In this document: piece after piece, positions 23,407 to 31,399 of the stretch
Layout: each line of letters starts with the position of its first letter
Numbering within the stretch: position 1 is the first letter of the stretch
From: Cellulosimicrobium funkei
GTDB lineage: Bacteria > Actinomycetota > Actinomycetes > Actinomycetales > Cellulomonadaceae
Length of the DNA: 64,000 nt
Assembly (NCBI RefSeq): GCF_004519295.1
Contig: NZ_SOZH01000005.1
Span: forward strand, 310,001 to 374,000
Direction: 5' to 3'
Position numbers and translations under genes: made by a program
The notes under the pieces: generated by a model
The model's input: the letters and a program-made list of their open reading frames with translations, nothing else
Database searches by the model: none
Told to the model about the DNA's origin: nothing

Positions 23407-24531
23407 TCAGCGAGGCTGGTACGGGGAGACGACGACCTCGACGCGCTGGAACTCCTTGAGGTCCGAGTAGCCGGTCGTCGCCATGGCCCGGCGGAGCGCC
23501 CCGACGAGGTTGAGCGTGCCGTCCGCCTGGCGGCCCGGCCCGAAGAGGATCTCCTCGAGCGTGCCGGCCGTGCCGACGCGCACGCGCTCGCCGCGCGGGA
23601 GCTGGGCGTGGTGGGCCTCCGAGCCCCAGTGCCAGCCCTTGCCCGGCGCCTCCTCGGCCCGCGCGAGCGCCGCGCCGAGCATCACCGCGTCGGCGCCGCA
23701 CGCGACCGCCTTGACGAGGTCGCCCGAGCGGCCGACGCCGCCGTCCGCGATGACGTGCACGTAGCGGCCGCCCGACTCGTCGAGGTAGTCGCGGCGGGCC
23801 GCCGCGACGTCCGCGACCGCGGTCGCCATGGGCGCGTGGATGCCGAGCGAGACCCGCGTGGTGTGGGCGGCGCCGCCGCCGAAGCCGACGAGGACGCCCG
23901 CGGCGCCCGTGCGCATGAGGTGCAGCGCCGCGGTGTACGTGGACGCGCCACCCACGACGACCGGGACGTCGAGCTCGTAGATGAAGCGCTTGAGGTTGAG
24001 CGGCTCGGCGACGCCGGACACGTGCTCGGCGGAGACCGTCGTGCCGCGGATGACGAACAGGTCGACGCCCGCGTCGACCACCGTCTGGTAGTGCTCCTGG
24101 GTGCGCTGCGGCGACAGGGCCGCGGCGACGGTGACGCCCGCCGCGCGGATCTCCTTGAGGCGCTGCGTGATGAGGTCGGCCTTGATGGGCTCGGCGTAGA
24201 TCTCCTGCATGCGGCGCGTCGCCTCGAGCGGCTCGAGCCCGGCGATCTCCTCGAGGAGCGCGGTCGGGTCGTCGTAGCGCGTCCACAGGCCCTCGAGGTC
24301 GAGGACACCGAGGCCGCCGTGGTTGCCGAGCGCGACCGCGGTCGCCGGGCTCATGACCGAGTCCATGGGCGCCGCGAGGATCGGCAGGTCGAAGTGGTAG
24401 GCGTCGATCTGCCAGCCGACCGACACCTCCTCCGGGTCGCGCGTGCGCCGCGAGGGCACGACGGCGACGTCGTCGAAGGAGAACGCGCGCCGACCGCGCT
24501 TGCCACGTCCGATCTCGATCTCGTTGCTCAC
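23407..24531 (-). CDS. guaB3: GuaB3-family IMP dehydrogenase-related protein
   Basis: A 374-residue TIM barrel of the IMPDH/GMP reductase superfamily without a CBS module. It starts KRGRRAFSFDDVAVVPSRRT and has LPILAAPMDSVMSPATAVAL, PVVVGGASTYTAALHLM, VIADGGVGRSGDLVKAVACG and VMLGAALARAEEAPGKGWHW. At the position of the IMPDH catalytic loop (GSICTT in guaB of this window) it has GGGAAHTTRVSLGI, with no cysteine. Classical IMPDH chemistry is therefore unlikely. GuaB3 proteins have been proposed as GMP reductases, but I cannot confirm that here. TAGGCT 6 bases before the GTG marks a leaderless promoter. Confidence 0.9.
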   Translation of the reverse strand: MSNEIEIGRGKRGRRAFSFDDVAVVPSRRTRDPEEVSVGWQIDAYHFDLPILAAPMDSVMSPATAVALGNHGGLGVLDLEGLWTRYDDPTALLEEIAGLEPLEATRRMQEIYAEPIKADLITQRLKEIRAAGVTVAAALSPQRTQEHYQTVVDAGVDLFVIRGTTVSAEHVSGVAEPLNLKRFIYELDVPVVVGGASTYTAALHLMRTGAAGVLVGFGGGAAHTTRVSLGIHAPMATAVADVAAARRDYLDESGGRYVHVIADGGVGRSGDLVKAVACGADAVMLGAALARAEEAPGKGWHWGSEAHHAQLPRGERVRVGTAGTLEEILFGPGRQADGTLNLVGALRRAMATTGYSDLKEFQRVEVVVSPYQPR

Positions 24532-25414: not shown

Positions 25415-25423
25415 ATATCTCAT
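25415..25423 (+). promoter_or_regulatory. Possible upstream half-site for the HTH-MurA regulator
   Basis: ATATCTCAT here repeats the left half of the palindrome at 25488-25509. The two copies start 74 bases apart, about seven DNA turns, so they face the same side of the helix. Confidence 0.4.
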
Positions 25424-25487
25424 GGTGCGGGTGAAGGTCGTGTGATGGAGGCATGATGGCGGACCGCACGCGCCCCTTCGCCGCGTC

Positions 25488-25509
25488 GATATCTCATCCA
25501 TGAGTTATC
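25488..25509 (+). promoter_or_regulatory. 22-bp palindromic operator candidate overlapping the HTH-MurA promoter
   Basis: GATATCTCAT (25488-25497), CC, ATGAGTTATC (25500-25509) form an inverted repeat with 9 of 10 positions matching. Such AT-rich symmetry is exceptional in this sequence. The right arm overlaps TATCGT (25506-25511), which lies 7 bases before the ATG at 25519 and looks like a leaderless -10 box. Occupancy would block RNA polymerase. Autoregulation by the N-terminal XRE domain encoded just downstream is inferred. Confidence 0.6.
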
Positions 25510-25518
25510 GTCGCTCTC

Positions 25519-27054
25519 ATGACAGCGATCGACGACGCACCTCTCACGCAGGTCGGCGCGCTCATCCGCGGCGCCCGCCAGAACCGGGGTCTCACCCAGA
25601 CACAGCTCGCGGAGCGGCTCGGCACGAGCCAGAGCGCCGTGCACCGCATCGAGCAGGGCTCGCAGAACCTCAGCCTGGAGATGCTCAACCGCATCGGCCT
25701 CGCGCTCGACTCCGAGATCATCAGCCTCGGCGGCCCCAAGCACGCGCACCTGCGCGTCCAGGGCGGCCAGACCCTCTCCGGCCGCATCGAGGTGAACTCC
25801 TCCAAGAACGGCGCGGTCGCGCTGCTGTGCGCCTCGCTCCTCAACCGCGGTCGCACCACCCTGCGCGGCGTGGCCCGCATCGTCGAGGTCGACCGGATCG
25901 TCGACGTGCTGCGCTCCATCGGCGTGCGGGCGACCTGGACGACGGGCGGCCGGGACCTCGAGATCGTCGTGCCGGAGCGCCTCGACCTCGCCGCGATCGA
26001 CGTCGACGCCGCGCGCCGCACGCGCTCGATCATCATGTTCCTCGGGCCGCTGCTCGGGCTGCGGGACACGTTCGAGCTCCCGTACGCGGGCGGCTGCGAC
26101 CTCGGGACCCGCACCGTCGAGCCGCACATGATCGCCCTGCGGCCCTTCGGCCTGGCCGTCACCGCGACGGGCGGGAACTACCACGCGACCGTCGCCCCGG
26201 CGTCGGGCACGGACCTGTCGGTCGTGCTCACCGAGCGCGGCGACACCGTCACCGAGAACGCGCTCATGGCCGCGGCCCGCCGCGAGGGCGTGACGACGAT
26301 CCGCAACGCCAGCTCGAACTACATGGTGCAGGACCTGTGCTTCTACCTCGAGCTGCTCGGCGTGCAGGTCGAGGGGATCGGCACGACGACCCTGCGCGTG
26401 CACGGCCGCACCGACATCGACGTGGACGTGGAGTACGCCGTCTCGGAGGACCCGGTCGAGGCGATGAGCCTGCTCACGGCGGGCATCGTCACGGGCTCGG
26501 AGATCACCGTGGCCCGCGTCCCGATCGAGTTCATGGAGATCGAGCTCGCGACGCTCGCCGAGATGGGGCTGCGGTACACGCAGAGCACCGAGTACGTGGC
26601 GCGCAACGGCCGCACGCGCCTGGTCGACGTCACGGTGCACCCCAGCGAGCTGCACGCGCCGATCGACAAGATCCACCCCATGCCGTTCCCCGGCCTCAAC
26701 ATCGACAACCTGCCGTTCTTCGCGGTCATCGCCGCGAACGCGCAGGGCACGACGCTCATCCACGACTGGGTCTACGAGGGGCGCGCCATCCACCTCACCG
26801 ACCTCACGCGGCTCGGCGCCGACGTGCGGCTCCTGGACGCCCACCGGCTCCAGGTGACGGGCCCCACGCGCTGGTCGGGCGCCGAGGTGAGCTGCCCGCC
26901 CGCCCTGCGCCCCGCCGTCGTCATCCTGCTCGCGATGCTCGCCGCGAAGGGCACCTCCGTCCTGCGCGGCGTCGACATCATCGCGCGCGGCTACGAGGGC
27001 CTCACCGAGCGCCTGCGCGAGCTCGGCGCCAACATCGAGACGTTCCGCGACTGA
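25519..27054 (+). CDS. XRE-type HTH domain fused to a MurA-like enolpyruvyl transferase
   Basis: A 511-residue fusion. Residues 9-68 are a Cro/C1 HTH (IRGARQNRGLTQTQLAERLG, then SQSAVHRIEQGSQNLSLEML). From about 75 to the end is a full EPSP-synthase/MurA fold. MurA landmarks are kept: the Lys-Asn pair in VNSSKNGAVALLCASLL, the loop cysteine in YAGGCDLGTRTVEPH (site of fosfomycin attack in MurA), FPGLNIDNLPFFAVIAANAQ and YEGRAIHLTDLTRLGAD. It could be an active UDP-GlcNAc enolpyruvyl transferase that also binds DNA, or a repressor using a MurA fold to sense UDP-GlcNAc or PEP. A normal murA would be expected elsewhere. The ATG is leaderless behind TATCGT. Confidence 0.85.
   Translation: MTAIDDAPLTQVGALIRGARQNRGLTQTQLAERLGTSQSAVHRIEQGSQNLSLEMLNRIGLALDSEIISLGGPKHAHLRVQGGQTLSGRIEVNSSKNGAVALLCASLLNRGRTTLRGVARIVEVDRIVDVLRSIGVRATWTTGGRDLEIVVPERLDLAAIDVDAARRTRSIIMFLGPLLGLRDTFELPYAGGCDLGTRTVEPHMIALRPFGLAVTATGGNYHATVAPASGTDLSVVLTERGDTVTENALMAAARREGVTTIRNASSNYMVQDLCFYLELLGVQVEGIGTTTLRVHGRTDIDVDVEYAVSEDPVEAMSLLTAGIVTGSEITVARVPIEFMEIELATLAEMGLRYTQSTEYVARNGRTRLVDVTVHPSELHAPIDKIHPMPFPGLNIDNLPFFAVIAANAQGTTLIHDWVYEGRAIHLTDLTRLGADVRLLDAHRLQVTGPTRWSGAEVSCPPALRPAVVILLAMLAAKGTSVLRGVDIIARGYEGLTERLRELGANIETFRD

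Positions 27055-29857: not shown

Positions 29858-31399
<1,542 letters not shown>

Follow-up and report, generated by a model that had tools for sequence, protein, structure and literature searches.

A helix-turn-helix-MurA fusion protein of Cellulosimicrobium funkei that probably represses its own gene from a conserved operator at a predicted leaderless promoter

The stretch of DNA analysed here (the window; 64,000 nucleotides of Cellulosimicrobium funkei contig NZ_SOZH01000005.1, positions 310,001 to 374,000) contains a gene whose product, HTH-MurA, carries a helix-turn-helix (HTH) domain of the XRE type in front of a complete MurA fold. The gene, its domains and the elements of its promoter region are compiled in Table 1. 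The fusion had been proposed in an earlier note on this DNA and was borne out by Pfam searches, in which HTH_31 and HTH_3 exceeded the Pfam cut-offs and EPSP_synthase, the family of the MurA/AroA fold, matched residues 80-499 (E 1.2e-44). In a structure model of the protein, helices were found at residues 7-63. A fold search with this model covered residues 74-511, and by both fold and sequence the nearest relative was MurA rather than NikO or AroA. The protein also scored 304.4 bits with NCBIfam subfamily PRK09369, for which at least 297 bits are required.

Table 1. Features of the HTH-MurA locus (window positions)
Feature	Position	Strand	Basis
HTH-MurA gene, 511 aa	25519..27054	+	ORF (open reading frame) translation, Pfam, profile searches
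XRE-type helix-turn-helix, residues 11-64	25549..25710	+	Pfam HTH_31 E 2.4e-12, HTH_3 E 1.5e-11
MurA fold, residues 75-511	25741..27051	+	two-domain MurA fold
K96-N97 = E. coli K22-N23	25804..25809	+	alignment, 81/81 members
C193 = E. coli C115, fosfomycin-reactive loop Cys	26095..26097	+	alignment, 81/81 members
P461, opposite E. coli D369	26899..26901	+	Pro in 81/81; Asp in 8/8 canonical MurA
Putative primary operator O1, palindrome	25488..25509 (core 25490-25507)	+	sequence, conservation in orthologues
-10 element TATCGT (TANNNT), overlaps O1 3' arm	25506..25511	+	sequence; TANNNT in 77/80 named loci
ATG start, 7 nt past -10 element	25519..25521	+	start-to-TANNNT spacing kept in orthologues
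Putative secondary operator O2, left arm only (TATCTCA 25416-25422)	25415..25433	+	74 bp from O1

Members of the HTH-MurA family were aligned with MurA of E. coli. The equivalents of K22, N23, R91, C115, R120, H125, D231, D305, R331, R371 and R397 are invariant in all 81 members, so that the residues looked for as marks of MurA (K22, N23, C115, R120, D305, R331, R371, R397) are present throughout; the Lys-Asn pair and the loop cysteine pointed out earlier are part of it. In the sections of the respective reports that deal with these residues, fosfomycin is linked to C115, K22, R120 and R397 (PMC4790336), and D369 to contact with phosphoenolpyruvate (PEP) or fosfomycin (PMC4790336, PMC4062475). 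Apart from D369, the PEP/fosfomycin-contact and catalytic residues are kept in 81 of 81 members.

The gene was found in 64 of 197 sampled genomes of the class, intact in 63 and split into two frames in one (G078). When 198 genomes were sampled across the phylum, ten gave a match at E ≤ 1e-80, none of these from outside the class. Matches begin at residue 11 or earlier in all 63 intact class members, i.e., the HTH is retained, and the HTH segment TSQSA..RIE is at least 90% conserved. Among 17 Cellulosimicrobium genomes, the gene is intact in 13, in pieces in one and lacking in three; all 17 have a second-type MurA match. The split gene (G078:C1:1261843-1263362) reflects either a sequencing error or a real break; the genome concerned has a completeness rating of 100%, and no other MurA turned up in it.

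A second murA without an HTH, for which the earlier note had suggested to look, is present in the genome of the window (G000:C16:112411-113706; the match spans residues 78-507 only). In 20 of the 64 gene-holding class genomes, all 20 rated 100% complete, HTH-MurA is the only MurA found. Further matches to the murA profile in these genomes do not exceed 43.4 bits and are presumably AroA. The other 43 intact class genomes gave at least two matches at E ≤ 1e-25, and a profile search of 26 selected class genomes, among them these 20 and G078 with its broken copy alone, found a MurA above cut-off in five. When 32 of the 80 named genomes were tested, 19 had a MurA above cut-off and 12 had HTH-MurA alone (four Nocardioides, four Aeromicrobium, Mumia, Serinibacter, Rarobacter and Pseudoclavibacter). 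A murB gene was detected in all 33 genomes searched, namely that of the window and the 20 plus 12 sole-copy genomes. With no second candidate for the MurA step found, the sole-copy genomes presumably depend on HTH-MurA for it, and the protein is there probably active and essential as an enzyme rather than a dead sensor. Enolpyruvyl transfer to UDP-N-acetylglucosamine (UDP-GlcNAc) is likewise the activity expected from genomes that have murB and no other MurA, and the subfamily as a whole is probably a distinct, working form of MurA. The earlier note had left the choice between an enzyme and an enzyme-derived sensor; as many actinobacteria have no other MurA that could be found, the former part is favoured and the latter has lost ground.

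Two side observations concern other MurA copies. In Paraoerskovia sediminicola, the remaining one of the 32 named genomes tested, a second MurA lies in two frames (G218:C1:2515043-2516346) and HTH-MurA is intact; the former could be a canonical copy being lost, or a sequencing error. Moreover, a third MurA-like protein of about 237 bits, below the murA cut-off and distinct from HTH-MurA, is encoded at G181:C24:27082-28344 and G234:C160:267865-269127, G234 being the Streptomyces of locus L040.

Two other readings of the protein were weighed against a working MurA. The MurA fold might be a dead enzyme turned sensor that only binds a ligand and thereby gates the HTH. Several positions constant in eight canonical MurA proteins are changed in all 81 members, the genome of the window has its canonical MurA, and the kinase-like domain of BzdR has lost its activity according to the relevant part of PMC3602430, all of which would fit; the 20 class and 12 named genomes with murB and no other MurA, and the residues kept throughout the family, make this reading unlikely. 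Alternatively, the protein might be an active, self-repressing enolpyruvyl transferase with another acceptor, as in NikO, where enolpyruvyl is transferred to UMP (uridine monophosphate). The walls of the sole-copy species would then rely on an unrecognised MurA. This is improbable given that MurA is nearest by fold and sequence, and that the further profile matches of the 20 class genomes are as low as stated above.

The gene is preceded by an imperfect 22-bp palindrome, GATATCTCATCCATGAGTTATC, termed O1, with one T/T arm pair and CC at its centre. Its overlap with the TATCGT -10 box, already described in the earlier note, was confirmed. Conservation of O1 was assessed in 80 named HTH-MurA orthologues matched over nearly the whole length with 70-97% identity, further orthologues being in existence. 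In 80 of 80, the 300 bp upstream contained a site that agreed with TATCTCANNNNTGAGATA at 11 or more of its 14 arm letters. In control windows from the same loci (both strands, n=1853) the best score did not exceed 10 in 1834 cases; the 19 higher-scoring controls comprised ten at 11-12 and nine at 13, nine also being the number of loci read in reverse orientation in that scan. When properly oriented, all 13 intact Cellulosimicrobium loci carry the palindrome. Of 29 class loci, L134 and L137 were dropped from the oriented set. An operator profile was built from a single locus per genus (27 genera). It holds 1.5-2 bits at 11 of 14 arm positions, 0.7-1.1 bits at the outermost T and at two positions of the right arm, and mostly less than 0.5 bits at flanking positions. 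Lack of conservation was an outcome that the earlier note had named as refuting its proposal, and orthologues proved to have the operator. Joint conservation of HTH and operator is as expected if the HTH protein and the site go together.

Of the 80 named loci, 77 have a TANNNT box closing the operator, and in 74 the distance from this box to the first in-frame start is 6-8 nt. Since operator site, box and start spacing are conserved together, operator, -10 box and leaderless start appear to be maintained as a single unit; the HTH-MurA transcript is accordingly spoken of here as leaderless by prediction. A search for RNA families gave no match at the gene. Binding to O1 might also activate transcription by a MerR-like action in the spacer, as O1 lies within the -35/-10 spacer of a promoter with no conserved -35. 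Part of the -10 box itself is covered by O1, and an operator covering the -10 box is in a usual position for repression, which leaves activation quite improbable.

In the family f22, the left arm of O1 varies (TAACTCA in 16 of the 17 loci read, GAACTCA in one), and many of these loci have CCAATGTGACGAATGTGGC in common ahead of O1. A longer block, approximately CGGATGGAGATCGTGTGA...GTGAT, is in parts common to the majority of Cellulosimicrobium loci (L083-L093) between O2 and O1 (25430-25487). Both blocks are perhaps sites of another regulator.

A genome scan for further copies of the palindrome, as proposed earlier, located the 18-bp O1 core with up to three mismatches at a single place in the 4.38-Mb genome. 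The pattern TATCTCANNNNTGAGWTA, again with up to three mismatches, matched O1 and three other places (2-3 mismatches each). The latter were rejected as further targets as they are at chance level, with seven strand-matches vs five for the reversed control pattern. In the class sample, TATCTCANNNNTGAGWTA with one mismatch matched 182 of 197 genomes and was too loose for use. The exact core ATCTCANNNNTGAGAT was considered in 62 class genomes holding the gene (the 64 minus the window's own and G078). It was present in 31 of them, and 30 of its 35 sites directly precede the HTH-MurA gene; the remaining five are elsewhere, with at most one per genome. Some stray sites are to be expected, as 63 genomes without the gene had 14 exact sites in 12 genomes. 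The operator thus appears to be dedicated to the HTH-MurA gene. Control of other cell-wall genes, which had also been envisaged, found no support: the only good site located is at HTH-MurA's own promoter. Self-repression, on the other hand, appears well supported by an operator that is conserved, placed at the promoter and exclusive.

Of about 31 HTH-MurA loci of the Streptomyces type, 12 have what we take to be an aconitase motif upstream of the gene and on the other strand. Because acnA (SCO5999) likewise adjoins SCO5998 (PMC12161575), the orthologue in Streptomyces can very probably be equated with the already named MurA2 (SCO5998 of S. coelicolor, sven5810 of S. venezuelae). In those parts of the literature that mention the gene, SCO5998 is named MurA2 and predicted to be a DmdR1 target (PMC12161575), SCO5998 is reported as SigB-dependent based on a listed promoter sequence (PMC8346170), S. 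venezuelae murA2 was footprinted by BldM-WhiI (PMC4125116), and overexpression of murA2 failed to copy the whiI phenotype (PMC11005364). The same parts call the product just UDP-GlcNAc transferase or MurA2 and contain no reference to an HTH, an operator or self-control (PMC12161575, PMC8346170, PMC4125116, PMC11005364). Literature searches aimed at an HTH-MurA fusion showed no matching work among the titles listed (20 of 41 in one search). That the palindrome serves another regulator, the HTH binding elsewhere or nowhere, would agree with binding of BldM-WhiI at Streptomyces murA2 and is very improbable, since the site tracks the HTH-MurA gene and little else where a general regulator would have more targets, and the BldM-WhiI motif is described, in the relevant part of PMC4125116, as non-palindromic.

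Taken together, HTH-MurA is in our view likely to combine two functions: as a MurA it would be active in transferring enolpyruvyl to UDP-GlcNAc, and through an acquired DNA-binding domain it would repress its own gene. This proposal draws on features read from sequence: the domain architecture, the conservation, exclusivity and promoter overlap of the operator, and the genomes with no other MurA found. From them we infer DNA binding by the protein's own HTH, repression instead of activation, a leaderless start, catalysis and essentiality. A pair of HTH domains would bind O1, and the bound operator, covering the spacer and -10 box of the leaderless promoter, would exclude RNA polymerase. As enzyme accumulates, its gene would be turned down, a negative autoregulation by which the enzyme would gauge MurA supply. 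Where O2 is present and helically phased, as in some lineages, another dimer bound there might assist, either cooperatively or by way of a small loop in the DNA.

Evidence for O2 comes from the repetition of ATATCTCAT 74 bp upstream of O1, at 25415. The same-face position claimed for this half-site in the earlier note agrees with the distance, which corresponds to 7.05 turns. The O2 arm is found at 74 bp in 12 of 13 Cellulosimicrobium loci (once as TAACTCA) and at 84 bp in one. Two Cellulomonas have a fuller palindrome at 64 bp; best matches in Curtobacterium, Schumannella and Mycetocola are at 63 bp (weak in three of seven Curtobacterium loci, p 0.05-0.3), and one Streptomyces has O2 at 117 bp. 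At 10.5 bp per turn, spacings of 63, 64, 74, 84 and 117 bp amount to 6.0, 6.1, 7.05, 8.0 and 11.1 turns. The scan comprised 120 of 122 loci, oriented, with 60 letter shuffles each. Among 31 representatives (20-160 bp), strong arms occurred only at 63, 64, 74, 117 and 57 bp, that at 57 bp overlapping the 64-bp site; the shuffle p was 0.025, and the choice of these strong arms, together with the half-site conserved in the genus, as the basis for phasing is post hoc. The phasing is suggestive: the half-site resembles a second operator that has become worn, and spacings that differ by one turn among related loci hint at a need for both dimers to share one face. Three Streptomyces-type loci near the aconitase motif (L042, L066, L069) have in common a perfect palindrome, TATCTCGATGTCGAGATA, perhaps for another regulator. 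It lies at 96, 263 and 190 bp, also near whole turns, and these loci were excluded from the O2 list.

Several observations weigh against the proposed bifunctional, self-repressing MurA. (i) D369 is replaced by Pro in 81 of 81 members, with a one-residue insertion beside P461 (CPPALRP, without Asp). R232 is replaced by Pro, E188 by Asn, and S162-V163-G164, which we take to be nucleotide-loop residues of E. coli MurA, by Gly-Asp-Thr, again in 81 of 81 members and including the sole-copy species. Because of these replacements the substrate could differ. (ii) The protein misses the TIGR01072 murA equivalog cut-off with 293 vs 392.7 bits; intact HTH-MurA of other genomes reach 284-318 bits. (iii) The gene seems dispensable beside canonical MurA, being absent from three of the 17 genomes of Cellulosimicrobium. 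(iv) The 12 named sole-copy genomes come with no completeness rating. (v) Neither a conserved -35 among the orthologue loci nor a match to the sigma-70 consensus promoter at HTH-MurA was found. (vi) The exact core is missing from 31 of 62 gene-holding genomes, which is accounted for by variants such as TAACTCA in the f22 loci read: the left arm varies and the exact pattern misses them. (vii) The listed SigB-dependent promoter of SCO5998 differs and is without this operator, as far as the part of PMC8346170 listing it goes. (viii) O2 of the window is weak when taken alone (p 0.12, 60 shuffles), weak unphased candidates occur, for example in L037 (135 bp, p 0.03), L039 (227 bp, p 0) and f22 (66-69 bp), and many lineages scanned have no clear O2.

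MurA catalyses the committed step of peptidoglycan synthesis and is the target of fosfomycin. As a guess, binding of substrate, product or fosfomycin may alter the DNA affinity of HTH-MurA. Tentatively, and with rather less confidence than for self-repression as such, the sole MurA of Nocardioides, Aeromicrobium and others may be an autorepressor gated by ligands: its active site would sense UDP-GlcNAc/PEP or fosfomycin, and it would adjust its own supply through a leaderless promoter, with a phased two-operator switch in some lineages. If the proposal is right, there would be direct feedback from enzyme to promoter at the MurA step, of which we know no other case. It would also explain how some actinobacteria manage with no canonical MurA, and the developmental gene murA2 of Streptomyces would gain a further, so far unreported level of control.

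By eye, the flanking ORFs of the gene seem to differ among the six loci compared. In the window, the region is flanked on the minus strand by genes at 23407-24531 and 29858-31387 that, judged by their motifs, are presumably IMP (inosine monophosphate)-dehydrogenase-like. A thiamine pyrophosphate (TPP) riboswitch (RF00059) is located at 1341-1443 (56.7 bits, gathering score 54.3).

Compared with canonical MurA (TIGR01072), HTH-MurA has the same fold and the same catalytic Cys, Lys, Arg and Asp305; it differs by its HTH, by the replacement of D369, R232, E188 and the nucleotide-loop residues, and by an identity of 33% to the canonical MurA of the same genome. In lambda CI and other phased operators, a second operator lies at whole helical turns; unlike there, cooperative binding or looping by HTH-MurA is something we infer. 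Trigger enzymes such as PutA, BirA and NadR combine an active enzyme with a DNA-binding domain that controls the supply of a pathway. HTH-MurA resembles them in having a DNA-binding domain and an enzyme fold in one chain and, by sequence, a conserved operator on its own promoter. They differ in serving other pathways and having known ligands, and to our knowledge no peptidoglycan enzyme is among them. The nearest precedent in design is BzdR, which like BoxR has a DNA-binding domain N-terminal to a metabolic enzyme fold, as described in the relevant part of PMC3602430. The effector domain there is shikimate-kinase-like, whereas the C-terminal part of HTH-MurA is MurA. Furthermore, BzdR has, by the same account, lost kinase activity and controls benzoate genes, whereas HTH-MurA seemingly keeps its enzyme and its own gene is the only target found; if so, HTH-MurA would represent, in organisms alive today, a stage halfway from enzyme to regulator.
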